Part shown: positions 12,229 to 47,167 of the stretch, in pieces
How the letters are laid out: each line of letters starts with the position of its first letter
Numbering within the stretch: the first letter of the stretch is position 1
NCBI RefSeq assembly: GCF_003999195.1
Contig: NZ_RJVR01000303.1
Span: forward strand, 1-64,000
Direction: 5' to 3'
DNA: 64,000 nt
From: Streptomyces soli
GTDB taxonomy: Bacteria > Actinomycetota > Actinomycetes > Streptomycetales > Streptomycetaceae
Position numbers and translations under genes: made by a program
Notes under the pieces: model-generated
Databases searched by the model: none
The model's input: the letters and a program-made list of their open reading frames with translations, nothing else
Told to the model about the DNA's origin: nothing

Positions 12229-12429
12229 GAGGCCGCGCGAATAGGTGGGGTGGGTGAAGGAGCGGAGCGAGGGCCGAGTCTGGCAAGGCGGTGGGGGCAC
12301 TCTCCCCCGGACTCCGTCCGGGAGGACCCCCACCCAGCCGCCAGGCTGGGGGACGTCGTCGACCGACCACAACGCCGCCAGGCAAGAGCCATCGGCACGC
12401 GACGCCGCCCCACCTATTCGCGCTGCCTC
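12229..12429 (+). mobile_element. MITE-like palindromic element, copy A (201 bp)
   Basis: Non-coding element with imperfect terminal inverted repeats: left GAGGCCGCGCGAATAGGTGG, right reading inward GAGGCAGCGCGAATAGGTGG, flanked by TAG on the left and TAA on the right. The left arm (GTGAAGGAGCGGAGCGAGG, then GTCTGGCAAGGCGG) and right arm (CGACCGACCACAACGCCGCC) recur at the ends of copy C at 46149-46476, in opposite orientation. The middle holds GC hairpins such as CCCAGCC-GCCA-GGCTGGG. No transposase is encoded. It may also act as a terminator for the upstream gene. Confidence 0.8.
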
Positions 12430-12490
12430 TAAGCACGACCGCGGACTGTTCGGCGGTGCCGCGCCCCTGGTGGCGCGGCACCGTGGCGTT

Positions 12491-13672
12491 CTACGGGGCG
12501 CTCTCGGGCCCGGCGAGGTGGCGGGCGATGACCATCCGCTGGATCTGGTTGGTGCCCTCGACGATCTGCAGGACCTTGGCCTCGCGCATGTAGCGCTCCA
12601 CGGGGAAGTCCGCGGTGTAGCCGTAACCGCCGAGGAGTTGGACGGCGTCAGTGGTGACCTGCATCGCGGCGTCGGTGCAGAAGAGCTTGGCCATGGCGGC
12701 CTGGCGGGAGAACTCCCGGCCGGAGTCGCGCAGTCGGGCGGCGGCGAGATAGAGGGCGCGGCCGGCCTCGATCTTGGTGGCCATGTCGGCGAGCATGAAG
12801 CGCAGGCCCTGGAAGTCCACCAGCGGGCGGCCGAACTGGCGTCGGCCCATGGTGTATTCGAGGGCCTCGTCCAGGGCGCCCTGGGCGAGGCCGATGGCGC
12901 AGGCGGCGATGCCGAGGCGGCCGGAGTCGAGGGCGGACAGGGCGATGGTGAAGCCCTGGCCCTCGTCGCCGAGGCGGCGGGCGTCGGGGACGGTAACGCC
13001 GTCGAAGTGGACCTGGGAGGTGGGCGAGCCCTTCATGCCCATCTTCTTCTCGGGCCGGGCCGCCGACAGGCCCGCCGCGTCACCGGGAACGAGGAAGGCG
13101 GTGATGCCGCGCGGTCCTTCGGCCCCGGTGCGGGCGAGCACGGTGTAGAAGTCGGCGATGCCGCCGTGGGTGATCCAGGCCTTGGTTCCGTCGATGGACC
13201 AGGTGTCCGCGGCGCTGTCCCGGACGGCTCGGGTGCGCAGGGACGCCGCGTCGGAGCCGGAGGCGGGCTCGGAGAGGCAGTAGGCGCCCAGGAGGGAGCC
13301 GCCGAGCATGGCGGGCAGGTGCTCCGTGCGCTGTTCCTTGCTGCCGAAGTACGCCAGGGCGTGGCAGGCCAGGGTGTGGACGCTGACGCCGAGCCCGATG
13401 GTGAGCCGGGCGGCGGCAAGCTCCTCGAGGACCTGGAGGTAGACCTCGTAGGGCTGTCCTCCGCCGCCGTACTCCTCGGCGTAGGGCAGGCCCAGCAGAC
13501 CGGCCTGGCCGATGAGGGTGAAGGTGTCGCGCGGGAAGACGCCCGCGTCCTCCTCCTCGGCCGCCGAGGGTCGGATCTCCCGCTGTGCCAGCTCGCGTAC
13601 GAGCGCGAGCAGGTCGCGGGCCTCCTCGGTGGGCAGCTGTCGGTCCACCGGCGGTTGGCCGTCGTGAGACAT
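12491..13672 (-). CDS. Acyl-CoA dehydrogenase
   Basis: 393-residue FAD enzyme of fatty or amino-acid acyl-CoA beta-oxidation. The domains are ordered as in the family: N-terminal helices, the flavin segment YCLSEPASGSDAASLRT, the middle beta domain with KKMGMKGSPTSQVHFDGVTV, and the C-terminal helices ending QLLGGYGYTADFPVERYMRE and KVLQIVEGTNQIQRMVIARH. The putative base is the Glu of IVEGTN, as in medium- and short-chain enzymes. ATG start at 13672. Acyl-chain specificity cannot be read from sequence. It stands alone on the minus strand between copy A of the repeat and a divergent lipoprotein gene. Confidence 0.93.
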   Translation of the reverse strand: MSHDGQPPVDRQLPTEEARDLLALVRELAQREIRPSAAEEEDAGVFPRDTFTLIGQAGLLGLPYAEEYGGGGQPYEVYLQVLEELAAARLTIGLGVSVHTLACHALAYFGSKEQRTEHLPAMLGGSLLGAYCLSEPASGSDAASLRTRAVRDSAADTWSIDGTKAWITHGGIADFYTVLARTGAEGPRGITAFLVPGDAAGLSAARPEKKMGMKGSPTSQVHFDGVTVPDARRLGDEGQGFTIALSALDSGRLGIAACAIGLAQGALDEALEYTMGRRQFGRPLVDFQGLRFMLADMATKIEAGRALYLAAARLRDSGREFSRQAAMAKLFCTDAAMQVTTDAVQLLGGYGYTADFPVERYMREAKVLQIVEGTNQIQRMVIARHLAGPESAP

Positions 13673-13951
13673 GGCGGCGCTCTCCTCCCTGTCGGGGGCT
13701 GCGGCGACATCCGCTCAGGGTGTGGCGGGCGCGCCGTGGGTCGTGACCGTGTACCGATGGTCTCCCGCCGGGTCACGGCGCGGCCTGACCAGCAGCTGCG
13801 GCGCGATGAGTATGCCCGATCGGACGCGTCCCGCACGCGCGGGGACGCATTTTGGCATACGGGCGCTCCCGGGGCGCCGGATTCCCTCCGACCGGTCGCC
13901 GGAGGGCGTCGGCTGGCTAGCATCGGCCCCCGGTTAACGCAGGGAGGTCGT

Positions 13952-14335
13952 GTGACGCGCGTACGGTGGGCAGCGGTGGCGGCTGCGGGGCTGCTGGCGG
14001 CGGGCTGCGGGTCGTCGGCCGGCGGGCAGCAGGCCGACGGCGGGTCGGTGAAGCTGGAGCGGATCGCCAGTGCCATCGGCTGCACGGCCTCGGTGCAGAC
14101 CGACAGTGCGGAGCTGCGCCAGGGCAGTTGCAGTACGGCGAACCAGACGTACGTACTGCTCACCTTCGCCTCGGATAAGGGCCAGCGCGCCTGGCTGGAC
14201 GACGCGGAGCCGTACGGCGGCTCGTACCTGGTGGGCACCCGCTGGGTGGTCCAGGCGGAGACCGCGGCGCTGAAGCCGGTGCAGAAGCAGCTGGGCGGGT
14301 CGGTGGAGGCCGGGGCGGACCACAGCGGCCACTGA
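13952..14335 (+). CDS. Small secreted lipoprotein of unknown function
   Basis: 127-residue lipoprotein. The GTG start at 13952 follows AGGGAGG closely and gives VTRVRWAAVAAAGLLAAGCG: a short basic n-region, a hydrophobic core and a lipobox LAAGC with Cys at residue ~20. The mature part is small, with two further cysteines (IGCTAS, QGSCST) that may form a disulfide, and ends in DHSGH. It would be a substrate for Lgt and for the Lnt encoded at 3318-4985. Function unknown. Confidence 0.75.
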   Translation: MTRVRWAAVAAAGLLAAGCGSSAGGQQADGGSVKLERIASAIGCTASVQTDSAELRQGSCSTANQTYVLLTFASDKGQRAWLDDAEPYGGSYLVGTRWVVQAETAALKPVQKQLGGSVEAGADHSGH

Positions 14336-14360
14336 GGCCCTGCCGCCCCGGGCCCCGGCC

Positions 14361-14825
14361 TCAGACGTCCAGGTCGGCTTCGATGCGCTTGAGCTGGTGG
14401 CGTGCCATCGCCAGGTTGGCGCGTTCCCGGTCCAGGGCGAGATGCAGGAACAGGCCCTTGCCGGCCCTGCCGCTGACCAGCCGGATCAGGTGGTACTGGG
14501 AGCCGATCGTGATGAGGATGTCCTCGATCCCCTCCTTGATGTTGAGCATCTCCATGGTGCGCATCTTGGCCCCGACCACGTCGGTGTTGCCGGCTGCCGC
14601 GACCGTGAGGTCGAGGTCCTTGGTGCCGCCGAGGGTGCCCAGGGCCATGCCGCTGCCGTAGTCGACGAGGGCGACGCCGATGACGCCCTCGATGGAGGTC
14701 ATGGCGTCCTTCAACGCGGTTTCGGTGTTGGCTATCAGGGTCTCGCTTCCTTTTCGTTGCCTTACCGGTTGGCGGGCACCGGCCGCGGGGCGGCCGCGGC
14801 CGGTGCCGGGTGGTTGTGGAGTCAT
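14361..14825 (-). CDS. Roadblock/LC7 domain protein
   Basis: 154-residue protein with a C-terminal roadblock/LC7 domain (about residues 35-140): TALKDAMTSIEGVIGVALVD, then LGTLGGTKDLDLTVAAAGNT and EDILITIGSQYHLIRLVSGR. Such MglB-like proteins usually act as partners or GAPs of small GTPases, or as scaffolds. The ATG at 14825 overlaps the stop of the 44-residue ORF by ATGA. An upstream ATG at 14999 in the same frame would add a basic, low-complexity 58-residue leader and is less likely. Last gene of the signalling series; no GTPase gene is adjacent, unlike in conservons. Confidence 0.85.
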   Translation of the reverse strand: MTPQPPGTGRGRPAAGARQPVRQRKGSETLIANTETALKDAMTSIEGVIGVALVDYGSGMALGTLGGTKDLDLTVAAAGNTDVVGAKMRTMEMLNIKEGIEDILITIGSQYHLIRLVSGRAGKGLFLHLALDRERANLAMARHQLKRIEADLDV

Positions 14826-14956
14826 GTCCGCTCCTGGTGGTCGGGCGCGCCGTCGACGAGGTCGCCGATGCGCCCGCTGAATCGGCGGGCCTCCAGGTGG
14901 AGCCGGCCGACGTTGGTGTCGGGACCTGCCACAACGACCTCGGGTTGTACGGTCAT
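14822..14956 (-). CDS. 44-residue small protein, coupled to the roadblock gene
   Basis: Small ORF MTVQPEVVVAGPDTNVGRLH ... ending DGAPDHQERT. It has a good ribosome binding site (GGAAGGAGG just upstream of the ATG at 14956), and its TGA overlaps the ATG of the roadblock gene. No recognisable domain. Position, Shine-Dalgarno sequence and coupling argue that it is translated. An in-frame GTG at 15040 could extend it to 72 residues and would itself overlap the preceding 24-codon ORF. Confidence 0.55.
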   Translation of the reverse strand: MTVQPEVVVAGPDTNVGRLHLEARRFSGRIGDLVDGAPDHQERT

Positions 14957-15036
14957 CGGCTGCCTCCTTCCGGCGAGCTGTCTCAGAGCGCGCCTCCATG
15001 GCCGGTCCGGGAGGTCCGCGCGGGCGGGAAGTGCAC

Positions 15037-15114
15037 TCACAGGCGGGCCTCCAGCGCGTCGCGGATCCGGGTCAGCAGTGCGATGCGGCGTTGTTGGAGC
15101 AGTGGGGCGCTCAC
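15037..15114 (-). CDS. Possible 25-residue peptide ORF linking the phosphatase and the small protein
   Basis: A GTG at 15114 overlaps the TGA of the SpoIIE-domain gene (GTGA). It opens a short frame reading MSAPLLQQRRIALLTRIRDA plus LEARL, whose TGA again overlaps a GTG at 15040. The peptide is an amphipathic basic helix. It may be only a ribosome-handover device; evidence is the double 4-bp overlap. Confidence 0.35.
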   Translation of the reverse strand: MSAPLLQQRRIALLTRIRDALEARL

Positions 15115-17555
15115 AGGGCGACGGGGAGCGCCTGTTCGGCCCAGATGGTCTTGCCCCCGTACGACTGGCGGGTGCCCCATGCCTGGCAGAGCTGGGCGAC
15201 CAGGAGCAGGCCGCGGCCGCCCTCGTCGGAGAGCCTGGCGCGGCGCAGGTGGGGCGCGGTGTTGCTGCCGTCGGAGACCTCGCAGATCAGGGTGCGGTCG
15301 TGGATCAGCCGCAGTTGGATCGGGGCATCTCCGTAGCGGACGGCGTTGGTGACCAGTTCGCTGACCACCAGCTCCGTGGTGAACCCCGCCTCCTCCAGCC
15401 CCCAGGCGACAAGCTGCCCGACGGCGGCCTTGCGGGCCTCCGCGACGAACGAGGCCTCGGCGGGCAGGTCCCAGGTGGCCACCTGCTCCCGGTCGAGTAC
15501 CCGCGTACGGGCCACGAGCAGCGCGATGTCGTCGGTGGGGCGCTCCGGCAGCAGCGCCTCCAGGACCTGATCGCACACCGCCTCCAGGGTCGGCGCCGGC
15601 GTGGCGAGCACCTCGCGCAGCACAGCGAGCCCCAGGTCGGGATCACGGTCGCGGGACTCGATCAGACCGTTGGTGTAGAGCACCATGAGGCTGCCCTCGG
15701 GTACCTCCACCTCCGTCGACTCGAAGGGCAGTCCGCCCAGGCCGAGTGGCGGCCCGGCCGGGAGGTCGAGGAACTCCACGCTCTGCCTGCCGGTGGCGCC
15801 CGGAGTGACCAGGGCGGGTACGGGGTGGCCGGCCCGGGCGATGGCGCAGAGGCCGGTCACCGGGTCGTAGACCGCGTACAGGCAGGTGGCGCCGAGGTAG
15901 CCGGGGGACGCCGCGCTGTCGTCGTCCGGGTCGGTCTCGGCGGCGACCCTGGTGACCAGGTCGTCGAGGTGGGTGAGCAGCTCGTCCGGGGGGAGATCGA
16001 CGTCGGCGAGGGTGCGTACGGCGGTACGGAGCCGGCCCATGGTCGCGGAGGCCTGGATGCCGTGGCCGACGACGTCCCCGGCGACCAGGGCGACGCGGGC
16101 CCCGGACAGCGGGATGACGTCGAACCAGTCGCCGCCCACGCCGGCCGCCCCGCCGGCCGGGAGGTAGCGGGAGGCGACCTCGACGGCCGCCTGCCGGGGG
16201 ATCCTCTGGGGCAGGAGACTGCGCTGGAGGGTCAGCGCGGTGGTGCGCTCGCGGGTGTAGCGGCGGGCGTTGTCGATGCAGACGGCGGCTCTGGCGGTGA
16301 TCTCCGAGGCGAGCAGGATGTCGTCGTCCTCGAAGGGGTCCTCGCGCTGGTGACGGAAGAAGATGACCACGCCGAGCGTGGTGCCCCGGGCGCGCAGCGG
16401 CACGGCCATGATCGAGTGGACCCCGAACCGGCTGATCCGCTCCGCCCGGACCGGGTTCTCGGACACCCACTGCGCCAGGGCGGGGTCGGCGAGGCGCTGC
16501 ACGACGGGGCGGCCGGTCGCCAGGCACTCGGCAGGTGGGGAGAAGGCCGGGTAGGAGTCTGCGGCTCCCAGGGCGACGACGGCCTCGGGCGTGCCCTCGA
16601 GTACGGAGGCAAGGGCGACGCGGCGCAGCATCACCGACGACGGGGTGGGCCCGGTGTCGGGTTCGGCACCGCGGTAGATGCTCTCCAGCAGGTCGACGCT
16701 GGCGAAGTCGGACAGCGCGGGCACGGCGGCCTCGGCCAGCTCGCGCGCTGTGCGCTCGACGTCCAGGGTGGTGCCGATGCGCAGCCCGGCGTCGTTGAGC
16801 AACTGCAGCCGCTGCCGTGCCCCGTGCTGCTCGGTGATGTCGTGGGCGGCGAGGCATACGCCGCGGATAGTCCCGTCGGGCTCCTTCAGGGGGCTGAGGA
16901 AGACGTTCCAGGCGTGCTCGCGGCTCTCGCCGACCGTACGAAGGTAGATCTCGACGTAGCGCGGCTCGCCGTCCTGGAGCACCTGGGCCATGACCCGCTC
17001 GGTCTTGTCGCTCTGCGGATCCAGGATGATCTCCGACACCCGGAGGCCGCGCATGTCGTCCTCGCTGAGCGCCATGGCGCGTTGCATGTCCTCGTTGGCC
17101 CGCCGCAGGCGCAGCCGCGTGTCGTACAGCGCCATGGTGCAGCAGGGGGACTGGGTGAAGGCCTGCCGGCCCAGGCGGTCGTCCTCCGGGCGGGCCTGGG
17201 TGCCGGTCAGCGGCGACACGAGCAGCCACTCGGTGTCACCGCTGCCGGTGGTGCGGCGGTGGGCCAGCAGTCCGGTGTCGACGCGGTGGCCGTCGCGGTG
17301 GCGGAGCGCCACGCGGCCGTTCCACCTCGGGAGTTCCGCGAGCGAGCGGCGCTGCTCTTCGGAGGGCTCCTGGGCGAGGAGCCGGGCTGCGGGCCGCCCC
17401 ATCATCTCCCCGGCCTCGTGGCCCAACAGCCGGCGGGCCCCTTCGCTCCATTCCGTGATCCGGCCGTGGCCGTCCACGGTGACGCGAGCCGTACGGGCCG
17501 CGTCGACCAGGTCATCCGGCGGATTGCCGCCGTCCGTATCCTCGTATCGAGTCAT
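15111..17555 (-). CDS. PAS-PAS-GAF-SpoIIE phosphatase-HATPase multidomain regulator
   Basis: 814-residue cytoplasmic signalling protein. PAS at about 18-115 (VTVDGHGRITEWSEGARRLL), a second PAS at 135-245 (ending VCLAAHDITE), GAF at 250-435, a SpoIIE/PP2C phosphatase domain at 445-685 and an RsbW-type ATPase at 700-805 (SELVTNAVRYG, EVSDGSNTAP, EGGRGLLLVAQL). The phosphatase motifs GGDWFDV, GDVVGHG and RPTDDIALLVAR are intact, but the usual YTDG metal-ligand motif reads YTNG (Asn at residue 629). Both the anti-sigma-type kinase and the phosphatase that would counter it sit in one chain. ATG start; 85 bp after the GGDEF-EAL gene. Confidence 0.92.
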   Translation of the reverse strand: MTRYEDTDGGNPPDDLVDAARTARVTVDGHGRITEWSEGARRLLGHEAGEMMGRPAARLLAQEPSEEQRRSLAELPRWNGRVALRHRDGHRVDTGLLAHRRTTGSGDTEWLLVSPLTGTQARPEDDRLGRQAFTQSPCCTMALYDTRLRLRRANEDMQRAMALSEDDMRGLRVSEIILDPQSDKTERVMAQVLQDGEPRYVEIYLRTVGESREHAWNVFLSPLKEPDGTIRGVCLAAHDITEQHGARQRLQLLNDAGLRIGTTLDVERTARELAEAAVPALSDFASVDLLESIYRGAEPDTGPTPSSVMLRRVALASVLEGTPEAVVALGAADSYPAFSPPAECLATGRPVVQRLADPALAQWVSENPVRAERISRFGVHSIMAVPLRARGTTLGVVIFFRHQREDPFEDDDILLASEITARAAVCIDNARRYTRERTTALTLQRSLLPQRIPRQAAVEVASRYLPAGGAAGVGGDWFDVIPLSGARVALVAGDVVGHGIQASATMGRLRTAVRTLADVDLPPDELLTHLDDLVTRVAAETDPDDDSAASPGYLGATCLYAVYDPVTGLCAIARAGHPVPALVTPGATGRQSVEFLDLPAGPPLGLGGLPFESTEVEVPEGSLMVLYTNGLIESRDRDPDLGLAVLREVLATPAPTLEAVCDQVLEALLPERPTDDIALLVARTRVLDREQVATWDLPAEASFVAEARKAAVGQLVAWGLEEAGFTTELVVSELVTNAVRYGDAPIQLRLIHDRTLICEVSDGSNTAPHLRRARLSDEGGRGLLLVAQLCQAWGTRQSYGGKTIWAEQALPVAL

Positions 17556-17640
17556 TACGGTTCATCTCGCCCTCTCCCCCATCCTTCCCCTTCGACTCAT
17601 CCGGAACCGGAGTAATGGGGGTATCGGCGGGAAACCGGGC

Positions 17641-20763: not shown

Positions 20764-20782
20764 GGATCTGGGTGAGCCTTGC

Positions 20783-22180
<1,398 letters not shown>

Positions 22181-34167: not shown

Positions 34168-34687
34168 ACGCTCTCCTCGGGCCGATCTCTGGCACTGCCC
34201 TCACGGGCGCTTCGCGCCCTTCGGGCGGGTGAGTCGGGGGCGCCGTCTGCGCCGCCGGTCGGTGGGTCGTTGCGGTCTCGCGGGCGGCTGCACCCCCGTG
34301 ACCAGGGGTTTTCTCTCCCCGCACCCGCACCTTCCCGAAACCGGGGGCTCCGCCCCCTGGATCCCCCCGGGTTGGGCGTTTGCCTCGGGCGGGACGGGCT
34401 GGCCCAACCCGCCCGCACCCGGCGACGGGCTCGCACCACGACGGTGGGTGTCCGAGGGTGCGTCGGCGGCCTGAGGCCCGTGGCCGGGTTGTGCCAGCCT
34501 CCCCAAAAGCTTCCTTTGGGTGGGGGTCCTCCCCCTGGCTTCGCCGGGGGCACCCCCACCGGCCGAAGGCTGGTGGGGGCACCTCCCGGCCGAAGGTTGG
34601 GGGAGAGTGCCCCCACCCCCAGCCTTCGGCCGGGAGGTGCCCCTATCTCGCTCCGCTCGCCTTGCGGAACGCCTTCCCACAACCCGG
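34168..34687. other. 520-bp pcaB-pcaL spacer, no gene
   Basis: No coding signal. The first part has hairpins (CGGGCGCTTCGCGCCCTTCG near 34203, GGGGGCTCCGCCCCC near 34346) and the last part the repeat module described separately. All other junctions in the operon are from a few bases of overlap to 11 bp, so this spacer looks like inserted material. Confidence 0.7.
34518..34672. repeat. Palindromic repeat module D, pcaB-pcaL spacer
   Basis: Bases 34518-34579 are identical over 62 nt to 46243-46304 inside element C. The following bases form nested hairpins (GGGGGCACCTCCCGGCCGAAGG with its complement CCTTCGGCCGGGAGGTGCCCC at about 34635-34655), ending in CTCGCTCCGCTCGCCTTGCGG, like the end of module E and the arm of element A. 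No terminal GAGGCCGCGCGAAT repeat is seen, so this is a partial or internal module. Confidence 0.75.
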
Positions 34688-36097
34688 TCATGGCTCGGCG
34701 CGCCGCAGGGCGCGGTCGACGAGGGCTGCTGCGGAGCCCAAGTAGGTGAGGGGGTCGGTGAGTTCGCGGAGGCGCTCCTTGGGGAGGACGCCGGCGAGCG
34801 CGGGCTCTTCGAGAAGCGCTTCGTCGAGTTCGAGGCCCTCCTCGACCGCGCGGCGGGCAGCCCGGGCGAGGGCGGATTTGGCCTCGCCGCGGCCGATCAG
34901 GGCGGTGAAGGCCGCGGCGAGGTGCTCGGAGACGATGAGGCCTTCCGTGGCGTCGAGGTTGTCGCGCATGCGGTGGGGGTGCACGCGGAGGCCTTCGACG
35001 AGTTCGGCGGCGTCGCGGGAGGCGCCGCCGACGAGGCGAAGGGCTTCGCGGAGGGGCTGCCATTCGGCGTGCCAGGCACCGGCGGGGCGTTCGTCCTCGG
35101 CGGCGAGGGAGCCGAAGAGGACGGAGGCGAGGGCGGGGACCTGGCGGGCGGCGGCGGAGATGAGGGTGGCGCGGACGGGGTTGGCCTTGTGGGGCATGGC
35201 GGAGGAGCCGCCGCCGGTGCCTTCGGAGAGTTCGCCGATCTCGGTGCGGGACAGCAGTAGCACGTCGGCCGCGATCTTGCCGAGGGCGCCCGCCGCGAAG
35301 GCCAGTGCACCGCCGAGGTCCGCGATGGGGGTACGCAGTGTGTGCCAGGGCAGCGCGGGCTCGGCGAGGCCGGTCTCGGCGGCGTAGGCGGCGAGCAGCA
35401 GGACGCCGACGTCGCCCTCGGGGGCCACCCCGTAGGCCTCGGCGAAGGCCTGGAAGGCGGCCAATGTGCCTGCCGCTCCGCCGAGTTGGGCCGGGAGGGA
35501 GGCGCGGACGGCGGCGAGGCGGTCGCGGGCGTCGAGCACCAGGGCCCGCCAGCCGGCCGCCTTCAGCCCGAACGTGGTGGGGACGGCGTGTTGCGTCAGG
35601 GTGCGGCCGGGCAGCGGCGTGTCGCGGTGCTCGGCGGCGAGCCGGCCCAGCGCGTCGGCCGCGCGGTCGAGGTCGATCAGCACCGGCGCCAGGGCGCGGG
35701 AGGCGACCAACATGACTGCCGTGTCCAGGATGTCCTGGCTGGTCGCGCCGCGGTGGACGTAGGCGCCCGCTTCCGCGTCGCGCTCGGCGGCGGCCGCCGT
35801 GAGGTCGGCGATCAGCGGGATGACCGGGTTGCCGCCGGCGCGGGCGCGCAGCGCCAGGTCCCGTACGTCGTAGCGGCCGGTGTCGGCGGCCGCCTCCGTG
35901 ACGGCAGCCGCCGCCGAGGCCGGGGCGAGGCCCAGCGCTGCCTGGGCGCGGGTGAGCGCGGCCTCGGCGTCGAGCATGGCGCGTACGTACGCGGCGTCGC
36001 CCGTGGCAGCTTCGGCCTCGGACCCGGCCCGCACCGGTGAGAGCAGGCCGAAGTCCTCGGCGGGGTCAGTCGAAGGCAAGGAAGACCGTCTCCTCAT
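34688..36097 (-). CDS. pcaB: 3-carboxy-cis,cis-muconate cycloisomerase
   Basis: 469-residue fumarase/aspartase-superfamily enzyme closing carboxymuconate to the lactone. Signatures are GDAAYVRAMLDAEAALTRAQ near the N-terminus, HRGATSQDILDTAVML (catalytic His region) and the superfamily signature GGSSAMPHKANPVRA. The stop is at 34688. The start is uncertain: ATG 36097 overlaps pcaG by 32 bp, whereas a TTG at 36079 has AGGAG about 10 nt upstream and fits the shorter N-terminus of relatives. Confidence 0.93.
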   Translation of the reverse strand: MRRRSSLPSTDPAEDFGLLSPVRAGSEAEAATGDAAYVRAMLDAEAALTRAQAALGLAPASAAAAVTEAAADTGRYDVRDLALRARAGGNPVIPLIADLTAAAAERDAEAGAYVHRGATSQDILDTAVMLVASRALAPVLIDLDRAADALGRLAAEHRDTPLPGRTLTQHAVPTTFGLKAAGWRALVLDARDRLAAVRASLPAQLGGAAGTLAAFQAFAEAYGVAPEGDVGVLLLAAYAAETGLAEPALPWHTLRTPIADLGGALAFAAGALGKIAADVLLLSRTEIGELSEGTGGGSSAMPHKANPVRATLISAAARQVPALASVLFGSLAAEDERPAGAWHAEWQPLREALRLVGGASRDAAELVEGLRVHPHRMRDNLDATEGLIVSEHLAAAFTALIGRGEAKSALARAARRAVEEGLELDEALLEEPALAGVLPKERLRELTDPLTYLGSAAALVDRALRRAEP

Positions 36098-37431: not shown

Positions 37432-38715
37432 CTACCTTTCCAGGACGAGGGCGAGGCCTTGGCCGACGCCGATGCAGAGGGTGGCCACACCGGTGCCGGA
37501 GCCCGCTGCCTTGAGCTGGTGGGCGACGGAGCCGGCCAGGCGGGCTCCGGAGGCGCCGAGCGGGTGGCCGATGGCGATGGCGCCGCCGCGCGGGTTGAGG
37601 ATCGCCGGGTCGAACTCGGGCCATTCGGCGACGCAGCCCAGCACCTGGGCGGCGAAGGCCTCGTTGAGCTCCAGCGTGGTGAGGTCGTCGAAGGTCTTGC
37701 CGGCGCGGGCCAGGGCACGGTTCACGGCCTCGACGGGGGCGAGGCCGAAGTAGTGCGGCTCGATGGCGGACACACCGGTGGCGGAGACGCGGGCGAGCGG
37801 CTCGCGGCCGGTGGCCTTGAGGCCTTCCTCGTCGACGAGCAGCAGGGCGGCGGCGCCGTCGTTGAGCGGGGAGGCGTTGCCGGGGGTGACCGTGCCTCCC
37901 CCAGCCTCCGGCCGGTGGGGTCCTCCCCCAGCCGCCAGGCTGGGGGAGGACCCCGACCTCGCTTCGCTCGCCTTCCGGAAGGACGGCTTGAGCTTGGCCA
38001 TGGCGGCCAGGGAGGCGTCCGCGCGGACGGACTCGTCGCGGGCGAAGACGACCGGGTCACCCTTGCGCTGCGGGATGGGGACCGGGACCGCCTCGTCGTC
38101 GAACAGGCCCTGGTCCCAGGCCTGGGCGGCCTTGCGATGCGAGGCGAGGGCGAACTCGTCCTGCTGCTCGCGGGTGATCTTGTGCTTCTCGGCGATCAGT
38201 TCGGCGCTCTCGCCGAGCGGCACCGTCCACTGCGGGTCCATCTTCGGGTTGACCATGCGCCAGCCGAGGGTGGTGGAGTACAGCTCGGTGTGCCCGGCCG
38301 GGAAGGGCCGGTCGTTCTTCGGCAGGACGTACGGGGCCCGGGTCATCGACTCGACGCCGCCGGCCACGGCGATGGACAGGTCGCCGAGCGCGATGGCGCG
38401 GGCGGCCTGGATGACGGCTTCGAGACCTGAGGCGCACAGCCGGTTGACGGTGACGCCGGGGACGGTGACCGGGAGCCCGGCGAGCAGCCCGGCCATGCGG
38501 CCGACGTTGCGGTTCTCCTCGCCGGCGCCGTTGGCGTTGCCGAAGTAGACGTCGCCGATGCGGGCCGGGTCCAGGCCGGGGGTACGGGCCAGCAGTTCGC
38601 GGATGGCGTGAGCGGCCAGGTCGTCCGGGCGGACCGAGGACAGGGAGCCGTTGTACTTGCCGACCGGGGTGCGGACGGCGTCGACGATGTAGACGTCACG
38701 CGGGCGGAAACTCAT
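37432..38715 (-). CDS. pcaF: Beta-ketoadipyl-CoA thiolase with an in-frame repeat-derived insertion
   Basis: 427-residue thiolase cleaving 3-oxoadipyl-CoA to succinyl-CoA and acetyl-CoA. The acyl-accepting Cys is in [10 protein letters not shown] (Cys 94), with [22 protein letters not shown] and the second Cys in [10 protein letters not shown] near the end, so all catalytic residues are present. Family members are about 400 residues. The excess lies between LKPSFRK (248) and [14 protein letters not shown] (274), where about 24 residues ([16 protein letters not shown]...) are encoded by a palindromic repeat. The start overlaps the pcaJ stop (ATGA). Activity after the insertion is uncertain, but the frame is kept. 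Confidence 0.94.
37896..37971. repeat. Palindromic repeat module E inside pcaF
   Basis: Contains a perfect 17-bp stem, GGGGTCCTCCCCCAGCC (37917-37933) and GGCTGGGGGAGGACCCC (37938-37954), loop GCCA, followed by GACCTCGCTTCGCTCGCC, the same end motif as module D and the arm of element A. It lies within the coding sequence and adds a whole number of codons (about 24). Confidence 0.85.
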
Positions 38716-40163: not shown

Positions 40164-40179
40164 GTGAACTTTAGTTCAC
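40164..40179. promoter_or_regulatory. Palindromic operator between pcaI and the IclR gene
   Basis: GTGAACT-TT-AGTTCAC is a perfect 16-bp dyad in an AT-richer stretch (TTAGTTCACAATAGCTTACG). It is 35 bp upstream of the pcaI ATG and 127 bp from the regulator start, well placed for IclR-family control of the divergent promoters. Confidence 0.7.
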
Positions 40180-40248
40180 AATAGCTTACGTCAGAGTCTG
40201 ATCCGAAGGCATCTGCCCTGTCAACGCTTTGCGCCAGTACTGTTTCTC

Positions 40249-40275
40249 CCCCAGACTCCGTCCGGGGGTCCCCCA
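40249..40275. repeat. Palindromic repeat module B just upstream of the IclR gene
   Basis: CTCCCCCAGACTCCGTCCGG followed by GGGTCCCCC matches, as reverse complement, the GGACGGAGTCTGGGGGAG part of element C and resembles the same segment of element A. It ends about 30 bp before the IclR-type ATG and would form a hairpin in its leader. Confidence 0.7.
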
Positions 40276-40305
40276 TCACTCCTTGATCTCTTGTGGAGAG
40301 AGCAG

Positions 40306-41970
40306 ATGACGCCTCCCGTCACCGCCGAGGTGGCGCCGCCGCAGGAGGCCGTGGGCCCGCTGATCCGGGGCCTCGCGGTACTCCGCGAACTCGCCGCCGC
40401 CGACGGACGGCGTTCGGTGGGCGATCTCGTACGGGCCACGGGCCTGGCCCGGTCCACCGTCGACCGGGTGGTCAGCACCCTGGCCAGGACCGGATACCTG
40501 CGGGTCGAGGGCCGGGACGCGGTGCTCGCTCCCCGGCTGATGGAGCTGGGCAACGCCTATCTCTCGGCCTGCCGGCTGCCCGATCTGCTCGGCCCGCTCG
40601 CCGACTCCCTCGCCGACAGCCTCGACGAGTCGGTGTCGATCGCCGTCCCCGACCAGGACGGAGTGCGCTTCGCCCACCAGGCCACCCGGCGCCGGGCCAT
40701 GTCGCTCACCTTCCGCATCGGTGACCTGCTGCCCGCCGAGCGCGGCGCACCGGGTGCGCTGTTCGCCGCCGACTGGACCGGCGAGGACTGGGAGCGGTGG
40801 CACCTCCGGCGCGCGGCGGACCCGACGGACAGCGGCTTCCCCGCGGTGCCGCCGCACGGGCGCGCCGACGCGGCCGGCTCCTTCGAGCGGCGTACGGCCG
40901 ACGCGCGGGAGCAGGGCTGGTCGGCGGACGACCAGTTGATCGAGCCCGGCCTGGTCGCGGTCGCGATGCCGGTACGGGACAGCCGAGGGCGCCCGGTGTG
41001 CGCGGTGAGCGTGGTCAGCCACACCAGCCGGCACAGCGCGGAATCGCTGCGCGAGGCGGTCCTCCCACGGTTGCGCGAGACGGTCGGCGCCATGGAGGCC
41101 GCGCTGTCCGCCGGCGCCGAACCCGCCGCTCCCCCGGCGGCCGGCTCGGCTCCCGCCGCCTGGACCCGCGCCTCCAAGCAGGAACTGGGCCCGGAGTTCG
41201 TGGAGTCCCTCGCGCGCGGCCTCACCGTCCTGACCGCCTTCGACCAGGGCCACGCCGAGCTGCCGCTGACCGCCGTCGCCGAGGCCACCGGGCTCGCCCG
41301 GGCCACCGCCCGGCGCTCACTGATCACCCTGGAGCACCTGGACTACGTCGCCCACGACGGACGGCTCTTCCGGCCGACCCCGCGCATCCTGGAGCTGGGC
41401 TTCGCCCACCTCTCCGCGCTCACCCTCCCCCAGATCACCCAGCCGCACCTGGTCGAGCTGGTCGGGCAGGTACACGAGTCCGCGTCGATGGCCGTCCTGT
41501 CCGGCGACGACATCCAGTACGTGGCGCGCGTCCCCACGGTGCGCATCATGAGCGTCAACATCACGGTCGGCACCCGCTTTCCCGCGTACGCCACCGCCAT
41601 GGGCCGCGTACTCCTGTCCGGCCTGCCCGCGCACGAGCGGGCCGAGCGGCTGGCCCGTACGGAGCTGAAGCCGCTCACCCGGCACACCGTCACCTCGGCG
41701 GACAGGCTCGCGGCCATCCTGGAACGGGCCGAGCGGGAGGGATACGTACTCGTCGACGAGGAGCTGGAGGAGGGGCTGCGGTCGATCGCCGTCCCGGTGC
41801 ACGACCGCACCGGGAGGGTCGTGGCAGCAGTGAACGTCTCGACGCACGCCAGCCGCAGCACCGCCGAGCACGCCCGCGAGGACCTGCTGCCGCCGCTGCG
41901 GGCGACGGCGGCGCGCATCGAGGCCGACATGCAGATCGCGGGGCGCTACGGGCGGATCACCCCGGCCTGA
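40306..41970 (+). CDS. Double-length IclR family regulator (two IclR units in tandem), likely pca regulator
   Basis: 554-residue protein made of two complete IclR units. Unit 1: HTH RSVGDLVRATGLARSTVDRV (residues ~35-55) and effector domain to ~265. A proline/alanine linker follows. Unit 2: HTH LPLTAVAEATGLARATARRS at ~325 and an effector domain with the typical SGDDIQYVARVPTVRIMSVN, GTRFPAYATAMGRVLLSGLP and RSIAVPVHDRTG. The ATG at 40306 follows GGAGAG. Divergent from pcaI; unit 2 resembles PcaR/PobR-type regulators of beta-ketoadipate genes. The pca operon of S. coelicolor is, from memory, controlled by a MarR protein (PcaV) instead. Confidence 0.9.
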   Translation: MTPPVTAEVAPPQEAVGPLIRGLAVLRELAAADGRRSVGDLVRATGLARSTVDRVVSTLARTGYLRVEGRDAVLAPRLMELGNAYLSACRLPDLLGPLADSLADSLDESVSIAVPDQDGVRFAHQATRRRAMSLTFRIGDLLPAERGAPGALFAADWTGEDWERWHLRRAADPTDSGFPAVPPHGRADAAGSFERRTADAREQGWSADDQLIEPGLVAVAMPVRDSRGRPVCAVSVVSHTSRHSAESLREAVLPRLRETVGAMEAALSAGAEPAAPPAAGSAPAAWTRASKQELGPEFVESLARGLTVLTAFDQGHAELPLTAVAEATGLARATARRSLITLEHLDYVAHDGRLFRPTPRILELGFAHLSALTLPQITQPHLVELVGQVHESASMAVLSGDDIQYVARVPTVRIMSVNITVGTRFPAYATAMGRVLLSGLPAHERAERLARTELKPLTRHTVTSADRLAAILERAEREGYVLVDEELEEGLRSIAVPVHDRTGRVVAAVNVSTHASRSTAEHAREDLLPPLRATAARIEADMQIAGRYGRITPA

Positions 41971-41975
41971 CCCGG

Positions 41976-42003
41976 GGCCCTGCGGCACGCGGGCCGCAGG
42001 GCC
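41976..42003. terminator. Bidirectional terminator between the IclR and nitroreductase genes
   Basis: GGCCCTGCGGC (41976-41986) and GCCGCAGGGCC (41993-42003) are perfect complements over a 6-nt loop, placed 6 bp after the IclR stop and 19 bp from the convergent nitroreductase stop. Confidence 0.8.
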
Positions 42004-42021
42004 GGGGGGATGGCGGCTCCG

Positions 42022-42621
42022 TCAGCCGATGCCGAGCGGGGTCTGCCAGGAGCCGGCGAAGAAGGTCTCGTCCAGCGGACGGCGCGCCCGGGTCTCGGTC
42101 TCGCGGGCCCGCAGCGTCTCGTCGGGCAGCCGGTCGGCCTCGGCCAGCGCGCCGAGGGCGATGACGGCGAGCGGCCGGAAGCCCTCGGGGATGTCGAAGG
42201 ACGCGGCGAGCCGCTCGGGCACGAAGCCGCCCATCTGGTGGGCATGCAGGCCCTCCGCGTGCGCCTGGACCGTGAGTTGGGCGACGGCGAGGCCGGTGTC
42301 GTACGCGGCCGTCGCGTTGGGCGAGCCGTCCTCCAGCCGTTCGGCGGTGACCGCGGCGATGAGGACGGAAGCGTTGCCGGCCCAGACCTGGTTGAAGCCG
42401 ATCAGGGCGTTGTGCACTGCCTTGTACGTCTCGTCGCCGCGCCGTCCGACGATGAAGCGCCACGGCTGGATGTTGCGCGCCGACGCGGCCCAGCGGGCCG
42501 CCTCGAGCAGGGATGCGAGCTGCCCGTCGGTGATCTCGTAGGAGGGGTCGAAGGAGCGCGGGCTCCAGCGCTCGGCGAGCAGCGGGTGCACGGGGGCGGA
42601 GGTGACGGCGCTACGGGACAT
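42022..42621 (-). CDS. Nitroreductase family protein
   Basis: 199-residue FMN oxidoreductase. The N-terminal FMN contact ERWSPRSFDPSYEITDGQLA and SARNIQPWRFIV are family signatures, and HAEGLHAHQMGGFVPERLAA and FRPLAVIALGAL complete the fold. Substrate unknown (nitroaromatics, quinones or related). ATG 42621; convergent with the IclR gene; 141 bp downstream of the Bcr/CflA-type efflux gene on the same strand. Confidence 0.9.
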   Translation of the reverse strand: MSRSAVTSAPVHPLLAERWSPRSFDPSYEITDGQLASLLEAARWAASARNIQPWRFIVGRRGDETYKAVHNALIGFNQVWAGNASVLIAAVTAERLEDGSPNATAAYDTGLAVAQLTVQAHAEGLHAHQMGGFVPERLAASFDIPEGFRPLAVIALGALAEADRLPDETLRARETETRARRPLDETFFAGSWQTPLGIG

Positions 42622-42762
42622 TCGGATGACTCCTGGGGGGATGATCGGTGTTCGGGGTGTTCAAGGTTGTTCGGGCGGTTGCGTGTTCGGGTGGGGACTC
42701 GCTGCGATCAGCGGCAGCATGGCGTCCGGCTATTCCCGTCGGCCACGCCTACCGCCGGGATT

Positions 42763-44043
42763 TCACGCGGCTGCAACAGTGCGGGGGGATTCCTGGAATT
42801 CGCCGTGCCCCTGCCAGGGCCGGGCCAGTAGGGTCAGCGACAGTGCGGCGCAGGCCAGCGCGCCGAGCATGATGGCCGCCATCGGCGTCGCACTGCTGGT
42901 GCCGAACAGCCCCACCAGCGGCGAGGCGAGCGCCCCGAGCAGGAACTGGGTACCGCCGAGCAATGCCGACGCCGTACCGGGTGCGTGCCGGCCCAGTGTC
43001 TGACCCAGGCTCATGCTGGCCGGGAAGACCATCCCGATGCCCGCCAGAGCGACGAACAGGCAGCACCAGGTGCCCGCGAGGCTGCTGCCGACGGTGGCGA
43101 TCAACAGCACCTGTCCGATGACACCGGCCGCCGCTACCGACACGCCGAGGGTCAGCAGCGTGTTCATCCGCATCCGGCGGGCCAGCACGCCGAACGTCCC
43201 GCCGGCCAGCAGCATGCCGAGCGCGTTGACCGCGAAGATCAGGCTGTACTGGGTCGCCGAGACGCCGTAGATGTTCTCGAAGACGAAGCTGGAGCCCGAG
43301 ATGTACGTGAAGAGGGCGGCGGTGCCGAAGCCCAGCGTCAGCACATGGCCCACGAACGTACGGCGGCCGAGCAGTCGGCCCATGGCCCGGAAGGTGCTGC
43401 CGAGACCAACCGCCCGCCGCCGCGCCGGCGGCAGCGACTCGGGCACCTTGGCCAGAACGGCCAGGAGCAGCAGGACACCAGCCGCTGTGAGCACGAAGAA
43501 GGTGGCCCGCCAGGTGGAGACGGACAAAATCGCGCCGCCGACGACGGGCGCCGCGACCGGTGCGATGCCCAGAACCATGGAGAGCATGGAGAAATACCGG
43601 GGAATGTCCGCGCCATGGAACCAGTCGGTGATCACCGCGCGGGCCAGCACCATGCCCGCCGCGCCCGCGACGCCTTCGAGGAAGCGGGCCCCGATCAGGA
43701 CCTGGACGTTGGGCGCGACGGCGCAGAGGAAGGAGAGCGCGGCGAAGGCGGCGGTGCCGGATATGAGCAGCCTGCGGCGGCCGAGGCCGTCGCTGAGCGG
43801 GCCGATGAGGATCTGCCCGAGGACCGCGCCGGCCAGGAAGGCCGTCATCGACAGCTGTACGGCGGAAGCGCTCGCGTGCAGGGAGCTGCCCATCTCCGGG
43901 AAGCCGGGTACGTACATGTCGGTGGACAGCGGAGCGACCGCCGTCAGGGCACCGAGTACAGCGATCAGCGCGGCGACCCGCTTGGGCGGGGCTGCGGGGG
44001 ACGATGTCGTTGAGCCTTCGGTGGTGGTCTGAGCGGCTACCAT
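42763..44043 (-). CDS. MFS multidrug efflux transporter, Bcr/CflA type
   Basis: 426-residue 12-helix drug:H+ antiporter. PLSTDMYVPGFPEMGSSL in helix 1 and QILIGPLSDGLGRRRLLISG between helices 2 and 3 are hallmarks of the Bcr/CflA (DHA1) group; VLARAVITDWFHG and PVVGGAIL follow. A divergent MarR gene starts 45 bp away and is the likely repressor. The start is ATG 44043; later starts are possible because the first 20 residues are hydrophilic. Confidence 0.9.
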   Translation of the reverse strand: MVAAQTTTEGSTTSSPAAPPKRVAALIAVLGALTAVAPLSTDMYVPGFPEMGSSLHASASAVQLSMTAFLAGAVLGQILIGPLSDGLGRRRLLISGTAAFAALSFLCAVAPNVQVLIGARFLEGVAGAAGMVLARAVITDWFHGADIPRYFSMLSMVLGIAPVAAPVVGGAILSVSTWRATFFVLTAAGVLLLLAVLAKVPESLPPARRRAVGLGSTFRAMGRLLGRRTFVGHVLTLGFGTAALFTYISGSSFVFENIYGVSATQYSLIFAVNALGMLLAGGTFGVLARRMRMNTLLTLGVSVAAAGVIGQVLLIATVGSSLAGTWCCLFVALAGIGMVFPASMSLGQTLGRHAPGTASALLGGTQFLLGALASPLVGLFGTSSATPMAAIMLGALACAALSLTLLARPWQGHGEFQESPRTVAAA

Positions 44044-44088
44044 CGAAGAAGCGTATCTAATAGTCTACTGGTTAACAAAGTCGGAGCG

Positions 44089-44604
44089 ATGAGCCGCACC
44101 TCCCCTCCCCCTCCCTTCACCGTGCACACGCCGCGCGAGCAATGGGCCGCCGCGCGGCCGGAGCTCGACACCTCCCCGATGGATGTCATCGGCCCCATCA
44201 AGCGCATCCACTGGCTGTACGAGGCCGCGCTGGAGCCGCTGTACGAGGCCGCGCCGGTCACCGCGCCCGAACTGGACGTCCTGGTGCAGTTGCGGCACAG
44301 CGACGAGCCGCTCATCGCCCGGCGGATCGCCGACCGGATGCGGTGCTCGCGGGCCGCGATCAGCAAGACGCTGGCCAAGCTGGAGAAGCGCGGCTTCATC
44401 GCACGCGAGCCCAATCCCGCGGACCGCCGGGCCGCCCTCGTCACGATCACCGAGGCCGGGGCGGAGGCGATCGACGCGATGTTCCCCCGTCAACTCGCGG
44501 TCGAGGCAGACCTGCTGGCCGGCCTCGGCCCGGACCGGGACCGGGTCATTGCCGCGCTCAATTTGCTGGCCGCCGCACTGGAGCGCCGCGCGGCGGGCGG
44601 ATGA
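44089..44604 (+). CDS. MarR family regulator
   Basis: 171-residue winged-HTH repressor. The DNA-binding core is IARRIADRMRCSRAAISKTL and AKLEKRGFIAREPNPADRRA, followed by ALVTITEAGAEAIDAMF, the typical MarR wing and dimer helix. ATG 44089. The 45-bp divergent spacer to the efflux gene is AT-rich (TATCTAATAGTCTACTGGTTAA) and should hold both promoters and the operator. Presumed control of the Bcr/CflA exporter. Confidence 0.9.
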   Translation: MSRTSPPPPFTVHTPREQWAAARPELDTSPMDVIGPIKRIHWLYEAALEPLYEAAPVTAPELDVLVQLRHSDEPLIARRIADRMRCSRAAISKTLAKLEKRGFIAREPNPADRRAALVTITEAGAEAIDAMFPRQLAVEADLLAGLGPDRDRVIAALNLLAAALERRAAGG

Positions 44605-44611
44605 TGTACTC

Positions 44612-44950
44612 ATGCTCGACGCCGACGACGTACGCCGAATCGCCCTGTCCCTGCCGCAGACGGTGGAGAAGGAACGCTGGAACCACCCCACCTTCGACGT
44701 GGCCGGACGGATGTTCGCCACCGTCCCCGACGACAGGACGTCCTTCGCGGTGCGCTGCCCCAAGGTGGACCGGGAGGAGCTGATCGCCTCCGAGCCGGAC
44801 AAGTTCTGGGTACCGCCGCACGAGGCGCACTCCTCCTGGGTACGGGCCCGGCTGGCCGCGCTCGAGGACGAGAAGGAGCTCTACGACATCCTGGTCGACT
44901 CCTGGCACCAGGCCGCCCCCGACGACCTCGCGGACCGGCACCTGCCGTAG
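44612..44950 (+). CDS. MmcQ/YjbR family DNA-binding-like protein
   Basis: 112-residue protein of the MmcQ/YjbR (CyaY-like fold) family: MLDADDVRRIALSLPQTVEK, then WNHPTFDVAGRMFATVPDD and FWVPPHEAHSSWVRARL. Function unknown. ATG 44612 lies 7 bp after the marR stop, suggesting co-transcription. Convergent with the FadR-like gene 20 bp away. Confidence 0.85.
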   Translation: MLDADDVRRIALSLPQTVEKERWNHPTFDVAGRMFATVPDDRTSFAVRCPKVDREELIASEPDKFWVPPHEAHSSWVRARLAALEDEKELYDILVDSWHQAAPDDLADRHLP

Positions 44951-44970
44951 GGCGATCGGCCCGTCACCCG

Positions 44971-45780
44971 TCAGTTCTCCCCCGGCTCGTTGAGGGCCAC
45001 ATCGCTTGCCAGCAACGACGCCATCAACTGGGAGAACCTCGGGTCGGAGGAGGTCATCTCCTTGCCGCGCGGCGTTTTCTGGATACGTTCGACCACGCGC
45101 TGGTGATACTTCTGGACCAACTCCACGGCGCGGTCCGCGTCGCGTTTCTCCAGCGCTTCCACGATCTCCATCCGGGCCCCGTAGAGGGTCCCCGCGATCC
45201 GTTCGAGTTTCCCGCCCGACATCTCGACGGCGAGCCCGATCTGGACCTCGGTGATGAACCGGCACAGCGAGATCAGCAGCGGGTGGTGGGAGAGCCCGGC
45301 CAGCATGTGGAAGTAGTTCTTGAGCTTGGCCGCCGCCTGGTCGACGCTGTCCGTGTCGAGGGCCGCCGTGCGCTCGGCGGCCTGCCGCAGCAGCGCGATC
45401 TCCTCGTCGGTGGCCCGTTCCGCAGCGAGTCGGACCGCGTAGGTATTGAGCACGGCGAGCAGTCCGAAGACATCGCGGGCGTTCATGTTGCCGAACTGCA
45501 CGACCGCCGCGATGGATACGGCAATGAGCGTGTCGCTCTGTGCCGTCACGGTGCTGCCGCTGCCGTTCCTGGAGGAGACCAGCCCCATCGCCGTGAGCAC
45601 CCGGATCGCCTCACGAATGGTCGGGCCGCTGACGCCGTACTGCGCGGCCAGTTCACGCTCGGACGGCAGCTTCGCGCCGTGCGGAAGCGTGCCGCTGAGG
45701 ATCTGCCCCCGGAGGTCTTCCAGAATCTGGTCGGCGACCCTTTTCCGGTAGATCTTTCCGGGCTGCTGGTTCATGGTCAT
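44971..45780 (-). CDS. GntR family regulator, FadR subfamily
   Basis: 269-residue regulator. The N-terminal winged HTH reads VADQILEDLRGQILSGTLPH, GAKLPSERELAAQYGVSGPT and IREAIRVLTAMGLVSSRNGS. The C-terminal all-helical FCD domain (residues ~100-235) has metal-binding His candidates (LSHHPLL). ATG 45780, or the ATG two codons later. The gene reads away from the benzoylformate/benzaldehyde genes and the broken FAH gene upstream of it, which it may once have regulated. Confidence 0.9.
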   Translation of the reverse strand: MTMNQQPGKIYRKRVADQILEDLRGQILSGTLPHGAKLPSERELAAQYGVSGPTIREAIRVLTAMGLVSSRNGSGSTVTAQSDTLIAVSIAAVVQFGNMNARDVFGLLAVLNTYAVRLAAERATDEEIALLRQAAERTAALDTDSVDQAAAKLKNYFHMLAGLSHHPLLISLCRFITEVQIGLAVEMSGGKLERIAGTLYGARMEIVEALEKRDADRAVELVQKYHQRVVERIQKTPRGKEMTSSDPRFSQLMASLLASDVALNEPGEN

Positions 45781-45813
45781 CGTTCGGCCTTTCCGGGCGC
45801 TAAATCCTCCTGA

Positions 45814-45832
45814 TAGCTTGATGTCAAGGCTA
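45814..45832. promoter_or_regulatory. Dyad upstream of the FadR-like gene
   Basis: TAGCTTGATGTCAAGGCTA: TTGA-TG-TCAA core extended by TAGC and GGCTA. It lies 34-52 bp upstream of the regulator ATG. Probable autoregulatory operator (inference from symmetry). Confidence 0.5.
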
Positions 45833-45858
45833 ACAGTGTGCTTGCCTTTATGGGAAAA

Positions 45859-47167
45859 CTAATGGTCTGTCTTCAGCTTCTCTTGAGCCGTTTCCCGCAC
45901 CACCGTGTTCTCGATGGCCGAGGCCCTCGACTTCGCCGCGCAGCTTGTCGCCGGGCGGGGTACCCGTCGAGAGCACGTCGCCCGGAGCCAGGGTGAGCGC
46001 GGCGGTCAGCCAGCTCAGTTGCTCCTGCGGAACATCTGCGCAGAACTCCCGTCCTGCCGAAGCTCGCCATTGACCCGGTAACGTATACGCAGGTCATGCG
46101 GGCCGGGAATCTCGTTCGCGGTCACGAACCAGGGCCCGACGATACTAAGAGGCCGCGCGAATGGGTGGGGCGGCGTCGCGTGTCGATGGGCGGCGCCTGG
46201 CGGCGTTGTCGTCGGTCGATGACGTCCCCCAGCCTGGCGGCTGGGTGGGGGTCCTCCCCCTGGCTTCGCCGGGGGCACCCCCACCGGCCGAAGGCTGGTG
46301 GGGGTCCCCCCGGACGGAGTCTGGGGGAGAGTGCTACCACCGCGTCGCGTCCCTCTCCCCCAGCCCTGGCGGCTGGTGGGGGTCCCCCCGGCCGAAGGCC
46401 GGGGGGACCCCCACCGCCTTGCCAGACTTGCCCCTCGCCCCGCTCCTTCACCCACCCCACCTATTCGCGCGGCCTCTAAAGGTGTCGAATCCCTTCGCGC
46501 GGTCTATCCGGTTGTTGTCCAGCGCGCTGACATCCCTGGCGCCCGCGTCGCAGAATCCGACGTAGCCGGCCACCGCCTTCATGGCGGAATCGAGGCCGGG
46601 GTTCCGCGCGCGGCTCCTGATCACCACGCCGAGTTCCATCTCCGGATCGACTTGCCGACTCAGGTTCGGGTAAATCAGGTTGTCGTGCGGCCCTGCCAGC
46701 GAACTCGGCGCCTTCAGGCAGCCCTGCGCGTTCCGCCGCGGATAACCTTCCGGCGGCGATGCGGGTGCGGGCGACACTGACGACGCGGCATCGTGCCGCC
46801 GCTGCGGGTAGTTCGCCATCATCCCCCAGATGGTGTGCGGACGCCCGACCGGCGGGCCCAGCAACGCCTCCTCGCAGGACCAGGTGCAGCCCTCGTCTCC
46901 GTCCAACTCGCCGCTGTCGGCACTCGTAAGCGCCCGGTCGAGCACCCGCCGGAGGACCGTGAGGCGCGGATCGACCTGGAGCAGGGTGGGGAGTCTTCCC
47001 GAGATCTCGGCCTGCGTCCGCGCGAGGGCATCCTCCCGGCGGGCGCCGCCTTGCACGAGTTGCCGCGCATAGGTCGCCTGGACATCGAGCAGCCGGTCCG
47101 GGACGACGCCGGGGAGGCAGAGCCGGCTGGTCAACGTCAGCTCGGTGTCCGGCCGTACGGCCCGCAA
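45859..47167 (-). pseudogene. Fumarylacetoacetate hydrolase family gene, interrupted by element C and further decayed
   Basis: N-terminal part 47167-46480 reads [53 protein letters not shown] and the FAH core DPEMELGVVIRSRARN ... AKGFDTF. It resumes after the insertion at 46145 with SIVGPWFVTANEIPGPHDLR and VNGELRQDGSS, then ELSWLTAALTLAPGDVLSTG. Besides the 328-bp insertion there is a small deletion near 46030 and a frameshift near 45905 before the last codons (IENTVVRETAQEKLKTDH, stop 45859-45861). The N-terminus seems cut where a fragment of a dehydrogenase on the other strand begins. Clearly non-functional. Confidence 0.85.
46149..46476 (-). mobile_element. MITE-like palindromic element, copy C (328 bp)
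   Basis: Terminal inverted repeats GAGGCCGCGCGAATGGGTGG (left) and, inward from the right, GAGGCCGCGCGAATAGGTGG; flanked on both sides by TAA. End sequences match element A at 12229-12429 in the opposite orientation (e.g. GGTGAAGGAGCGGGGCGAGG; CGACAACGCCGCCAGGCG). The middle is a chain of GC hairpins, one of which (46243-46304) is identical to module D. No protein is encoded. It interrupts the FAH gene between the codons for DTF and IVG. Confidence 0.88.

Follow-up and report, generated by a model that had tools for sequence, protein, structure and literature searches.

Two palindromic elements of a Streptomyces soli contig as very probable IS5-mobilized MITEs with a shared core and probably exchanged ends

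MITEs (miniature inverted-repeat transposable elements) are usually regarded as deletion derivatives of one transposon, and small elements of the RUP and Correia kinds show a TA duplication at their target. RUP itself is a small MITE-like repeat linked to IS630, and the BOX elements of Streptococcus suis are composite, with a shared middle module within two different end sets, a length that varies with the internal modules and a predicted folded RNA (PMC3049150). In the present study we examined two palindromic elements, A and C, in the first 64,000 nucleotides of contig NZ_RJVR01000303.1 from Streptomyces soli (assembly GCF_003999195.1; this whole stretch is referred to as the window), the genome of which is an Actinacidiphila relative of Actinacidiphila oryziradicis. 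Taken together, our data make it very probable that A and C are non-autonomous MITEs mobilized by IS5-family transposases, with a TWA (TTA or TAA) target, a core shared with other MITEs and ends that have probably been exchanged. Like BOX of Streptococcus pneumoniae and S. suis, they are composite non-coding repeats with constant ends and variable internal modules, but they differ from BOX in their IS5-type terminal inverted repeats (TIRs), their TWA or CTAG targets, a covarying core of ~100 nt, about four end groups and hosts among the Streptomycetaceae. As BOX offers a precedent for shared middles with different ends, we have classed them as MITEs of the IS5 type that are built from modules in the manner of BOX. 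They also resemble the RUP and Correia elements in size (~100-160 bp), inverted repeats, folded interior and many copies, from which the 3 bp TWA duplication sets them apart.

Element A (201 bp; 12229-12429, minus strand, with its B-type end on the right) begins 5 bp past the stop codon of an open reading frame (ORF) at 11043-12224, and element C (328 bp; 46149-46476) lies on the plus strand. Both are complete copies with near-identical 22 bp TIRs (GAGGCCGCGCGAATRGGTGGGG) and, as the initial annotation had described from these positions, they have opposite orientation and GC-rich middles that differ from each other. Their flanks also read as given there, i.e. TAG (12226-12228) and TAA (12430-12432) for A, and a target-site duplication of TAA (46146-46148 and 46477-46479) for C. 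Inside the TIRs the two ends are unlike, end A continuing as GGTGGGTGAAGGAGC and end B as GGCGGCGTCGCGTGC, and this is the same in nearly every copy. In element A the A-type end occupies 12229-12250 (plus) and the B-type end, which has one substitution (GAGGCA), 12408-12429 (minus), and in element C the B-type end occupies 46149-46170 (plus) and the A-type end 46455-46476 (minus). The TIR 20-mer was found at four places in the window, compared with 0.08 expected from shuffling. No recognizable gene was seen within A or C, where the overlapping ORFs of 120-170 codons, which were not scanned as proteins, are to be expected in any DNA so rich in GC.

The 22-mer end, allowing up to two mismatches, occurs at 36 forward and 36 reverse places in the window's genome, from which a first-pass extraction gave 27 complete copies of 58-360 bp, element A being added from a separate reading. 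Nearly all of these copies carry two distinct ends, B and A (the latter with variants), and can therefore be oriented; the unpaired ends belong mostly to truncated copies or to copies at contig ends. Overall, complete copies are 52-360 bp in length and non-coding, with 22 bp TIRs, as befits MITEs. Within the genus, carriers were found in three of 35 genomes, namely that of the window, G028, which we take to be A. oryziradicis (69 + 70 ends), and G029 (3 + 3 ends), with none in the other 32; the insertions number ~70 in A. oryziradicis and ~15 in Streptomyces corynorhini. Among the matches listed in a scan of GTDB contigs (at least 80 loci), the carriers were A. oryziradicis NEAU-C40, S. corynorhini AC230 and one contig of a Marmoricola metagenome-assembled genome. 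The last of these (JAOPYE010000038.1, L204), from outside the Streptomycetaceae, has one element at the contig end and may be mis-binned. At the level of the family, eight of 396 genomes matched the TIR pattern. A genome from the Streptomyces side (G404) has a GAGGTCGCGCGGATAGG variant in an element of ~160 bp, and single matches in three other genomes (G199, G260 and G336) were rejected as chance or as other elements. Where the TIR carries substitutions, both ends of one copy are often affected (for example at L067, L068, L126 and the G404 loci), which suggests correction from arm to arm or matching to a transposase. The TIR pattern was not found in viral contigs, nor the core in phages; the TIR string was found in none of the papers searched, and we found no literature account of such MITEs in Streptomyces.

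Exact duplications of 3 bp flank 62 of the 83 complete copies (TTA 29, TAA 29, CTA 2, TAT 1 and TGA 1), and flank repeats of GTA/GTA, TCA/TCA and ATA/ATA were also seen. TTA and TAA are evenly split whatever the orientation of the element. A duplication of 4 bp was considered for this family and rejected, as it matched in only one of the 83 copies. The initial annotation had favoured a TA-type target, but the 3 bp length, together with the CTA, TGA, TAT, GTA, TCA and ATA duplications, excludes a TA duplication, and the target is TTA or TAA, i.e. TWA. In relatives, the orthologous site of A is uninterrupted. Element C splits a gene of the FAA-hydrolase family, the 5' part of which lies at 46480-47178 (minus strand, start approximate), the frame resuming beyond C at 46017-46148 (minus strand, end approximate). 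Removal of C and one TAA makes this frame continuous and raises the FAA_hydrolase match from 56 to 104 bits; a further frameshift, which comes after the resumed part, makes the gene a pseudogene. With tens of copies in this and related genomes, matching ends, target duplications, an empty site, a gene split by C and near-identical copies at different loci, the proposal of a mobile non-coding MITE family holds: it extends well beyond these two copies, and empty sites do exist in relatives.

The end of the MITEs was also found on plasmid NZ_CP109164.1 (strain NBC_01727), where TTA is followed by GAGGCCGCGCGAATAGGGGCGG with an IS5 transposase gene directly inside (L468; TIR from 2505, gene at 2527-3369). 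Directly after the TTA this end is the same as the MITE end in its first 17 bases (GAGGCCGCGCGAATAGG) and in 20 of 22 overall, and the transposase matches NF033580 (168 bits), PF13340 and PF01609. A TIR in common with an autonomous transposon was found in this way at one end (17/17), in a species other than that of the window. In addition, NBC_01450 has a degenerate 770 bp relative with TTA on both sides. Through the plasmid element, and after a Pfam search, two transposase genes of the same IS5 clade were recognized in the window's genome (52% and 49% identity), with ends of the form TTA+GAGCGACCGAGGATAGG (GAG..ATAGG). TNA-type duplications do occur at IS5-family elements of these genomes, as seen in the window's genome at L391 (TAA on both sides, TIR GAGGGCGATACG), and with the TTA/TTA flanks of L469 the duplication kinds of the MITE and of IS5 agree. 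The MITEs are therefore like the IS5 family (NF033580 and, for the CTAG type, IS1648 of Streptomyces coelicolor SCP2) in a TIR that matches the NBC_01727 element and in a TNA-type target, and unlike it in having no coding sequence and in carrying a core for which the compared IS loci gave no match.

In the mechanism that we propose, the ~22 bp TIRs would be recognized in trans, presumably by an IS5-family transposase (PF13340 plus DDE_Tnp_1; NF033580), which would insert the MITEs at TTA or TAA with a 3 bp duplication; judged by sequence likeness, the mobilizer in this host would be the IS5 clade of the NZ_CP109164.1 type. That the family of A and C has been moved by IS5-type and not IS630-type transposases is most likely. 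The initial annotation had named an IS630/Tc1-type transposase with a TA duplication, and it is true that TA is contained in both TTA and TAA and that RUP is a small repeat linked to IS630 (PMC3049150). We nevertheless consider this very unlikely, as the 3 bp of the 62 exact duplications, evenly TTA and TAA regardless of orientation, would need random end-switching to supply the extra base, the rarer TGA and TCA duplications have no shared TA, and the one transposon that we found with this end has a transposase of the IS5 family (the search did not extend to IS630 families). Two other candidates were rejected as autonomous partners: a long TIR pair in A. oryziradicis (L196, 1.8 kb) proved to be two separate remnants around host genes, and the IS5 element of S. 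atratus, considered as the bearer of the GACCG ends of its MITEs, has one intact end, which is of the GAGG type.

A TTA or TAA target in a GC-rich genome would confine most insertions to intergenic DNA and to stop codons. Coding-like ORFs were defined here by their length and by GC content at codon positions rather than taken from an annotation. Such ORFs contained 50% of random positions and 17% of TWA sites, but just two of 74 copies. In addition, insertion exactly at the stop of a coding-like ORF was seen for 15 of the 83 copies, compared with 6.5% of control TAA. The TWA target would explain how such elements keep out of genes in GC-rich genomes.

In the middle of the element lies a folded core of ~100 nt (~159 bp with the ends). 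When plasmids were compared with the 159 bp form that has no extra hairpins, 21 Streptomyces records matched, and 36 did so with the core-only query. This core was found in elements with the TIR GACCGACCGGCAATTGGGG (TAA or TTA flanks), in elements with the TIRs GGGGTGTCGTTTGGATC and GGCCTGTCCGGCGGATCATG (CTAG flanks) and also in elements with the TIRs GGTCTTTCGTTTGGATC, GTCGTCAAAGTCCCGTC and GTCCTGTCTGGAGTTCC; the elements that share it fall into about four terminal-repeat groups with no relation to one another, and their targets are of two types, TWA and CTAG. In gapped alignments of hand-chosen representatives, the identity of the core between TIR types was 0.76-0.99 and that of the TIRs between groups was mostly equal to that of shuffles. 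Both GAGG-type and GGCCTC/GGTCTT-type elements of S. corynorhini carry the core, that of the latter being 90% identical to the core of a plasmid element of its own type, and the window's genome and A. oryziradicis also hold GGGCCTGTCCGGCSGATCTCC elements with parts of it. IS5-family elements, IS1648 of SCP2 among them, have ends similar to the GGCCTGTCCGG end; within the IS loci compared, the core was found only in MITE copies near them.

Other Streptomyces MITEs carry the same core within other TIRs, one group having ends like those of IS1648-like IS5 elements with CTAG flanks. It is therefore probable that the lineage has acquired new ends more than once around a retained middle, and the ends could have been exchanged by template switching or by insertion inside another element. 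It is also conceivable, though in our opinion unlikely, that the similar cores represent one MITE lineage in which the TIRs diverged fast along with their transposases and no ends were exchanged. In its favour, the subterminal bases are similar within a group (GGCGGCGTCGCGGGG for both GAGG-type and GACCG-type elements) and the GG..GGATCATG types can be arranged in a graded series. Against it, TIRs from different groups are no more alike than expected by chance with cores ~80-89% identical, the target class shifts from TWA to CTAG, and both TIR kinds coexist in one genome, that of S. corynorhini. If ends have been exchanged, a conserved folded middle in several unrelated end pairs would make the interior, not the ends, a possible inherited unit, and such a conserved middle makes the question of the interior's role directly testable.

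The fold of the core was assessed in 24 sequences, in which its 34 pairs were 95% formed and 16 pairs and 106 cells were changed on both sides, a result reached by none of 500 shuffles. In the inner hairpin (NNNNGCTCCGCNNNN) four of the seven pairs covary. The consensus fold is more stable on the minus strand than on the plus strand (−43.3 and −22.3 kcal/mol respectively), and departures from pairing on the minus strand comprise 79 G-U and 12 C-A cells. As an addition to the account of A and C as IS5-mobilized MITEs, we tentatively entertain the possibility that different MITEs carry, as a passenger, a core that works as a structured RNA, is transcribed opposite to the B-to-A reading and has been maintained by selection. 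The covariation and the strand difference in stability are in keeping with this, as are the G-U excess, where a strandless DNA palindrome should give equal numbers, and the invariant stretches GCAAGG and a GACGACAACGC-like motif. However, the excess shrinks to 10 to 7 when pair columns are counted, and the minus strand was the one on which the structure had been chosen, so that it amounts to a hint of RNA and not proof; moreover, the sequences, being related, do not count as independent, a palindrome can be corrected by templating from its own hairpin, and no Rfam family fits, Rfam 15 having given no match overlapping the element at E≤1 in six loci or at the gathering threshold in the window. 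Similarly tentative is the fuller proposal that the ~100 nt core is an uncatalogued one-strand structured RNA that has persisted across the Streptomycetaceae by repeatedly adopting the TIRs of whichever IS5-type transposon was active; the transcription and function of the core are both putative.

Several observations weigh against our overall account of IS5-mobilized elements with exchanged ends. The initial annotation had suggested looking for a full-length transposon with the same ends, and the element on NZ_CP109164.1 answers to this at one end (17/17), its other (right) end having diverged; we saw no intact IS in which both ends matched perfectly. Profile searches of the window's genome (PF13359, PF01609 and PF13340) found no autonomous element with exactly these ends, and the IS5 relatives there share 11 of 17 TIR bases with the MITE. 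The flanks of A agree at just two of three bases. A distant relationship between some of the TIR types is possible (GGGGTG, GGCCTG and GGTCTT agree at 70-85%, and GAGG and GACCG at 75% with gaps), so the independent end changes are fewer than the TIR sequences. CTAG is self-complementary, and a duplication is therefore inseparable from a target motif there. Finally, some of the covariation in the core could stem from correction within palindromes.

The apical part of the core has mostly been swapped for arrays of GC hairpins (type TCCCCCAGCCTTCGGCCGGGGGGAC) in the window's genome, and it is this variable array in place of the apical hairpin that gives A and C their different middles. In element A, the left arm of the core (12354-12406, minus strand; 83% identity to the 159 bp core over 53 nt) adjoins GC-hairpin modules at 12293-12353, and in element C the left arm (46172-46224, plus strand; 92% over 53 nt) and the right arm (46408-46446, plus strand; 87% over 39 nt) enclose an array at 46225-46407. 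In 192 bp copies from S. corynorhini, the insertion in the apical part of the core is a different hairpin. The GC hairpin is an independent dispersed repeat, with 101 matches in the window's genome and 67 and 40 in two relatives that have no MITE, and it is also present outside the MITEs in the window, where modules at 37902-37957 and 40248-40275 lie outside any recognized element. These modules are like REP/BIME repeats in being short dispersed intergenic palindromes, and their occurrence alone in the same genomes, as well as in paired arrays, could be taken to mean that the elements as a whole belong with the REP/BIME-like palindromes and were mobilized by a RAYT (Y1) transposase or distributed through recombination. 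This is extremely improbable for the whole elements, which unlike REP/BIME have TIRs and TWA duplications; to our knowledge, Y1 transposition does not make these. Beside the modules inspected no RAYT was recognized, and among the ORFs between two paired arrays of G012 no Y1/RAYT gene was recognized by eye, with no family scan. For the hairpin modules alone, a REP/BIME reading may apply.

At loci L352-L359 (G012 and G001), GC hairpins build longer composite intergenic repeats that form inverted pairs around host genes. A third palindromic repeat in the window (34483-34688), with the ends CCGGGTTGTG and CACAACCCGG, has the same GC-hairpin modules inside, and a similar one is found in contig C39 of the same genome (L360).

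A minimal 29 bp form of the MITE (GAGGCCGCGCGAATAGGTGGGGCGGCCTC, exact or near-exact) was found at 19 loci in the window's genome, A. oryziradicis and S. corynorhini, with exact 3 bp flank repeats at 11 of the 19. It corresponds to a deletion between GCGGC repeats close to both ends, and either recurrent deletion or independent mobility is possible; should it move on its own, its small size would be remarkable for a transposable unit. At one locus of A. oryziradicis (L202, ~1067-1300), a 29 bp minimal element stands at the CTAG border of a core-bearing element with the ends GAGCCTGTCGGGTGA, one having inserted at the other's edge. Elsewhere in the window, a c-di-AMP riboswitch was identified at 21961-22142 on the minus strand (Rfam RF00379, 62.6 bits).

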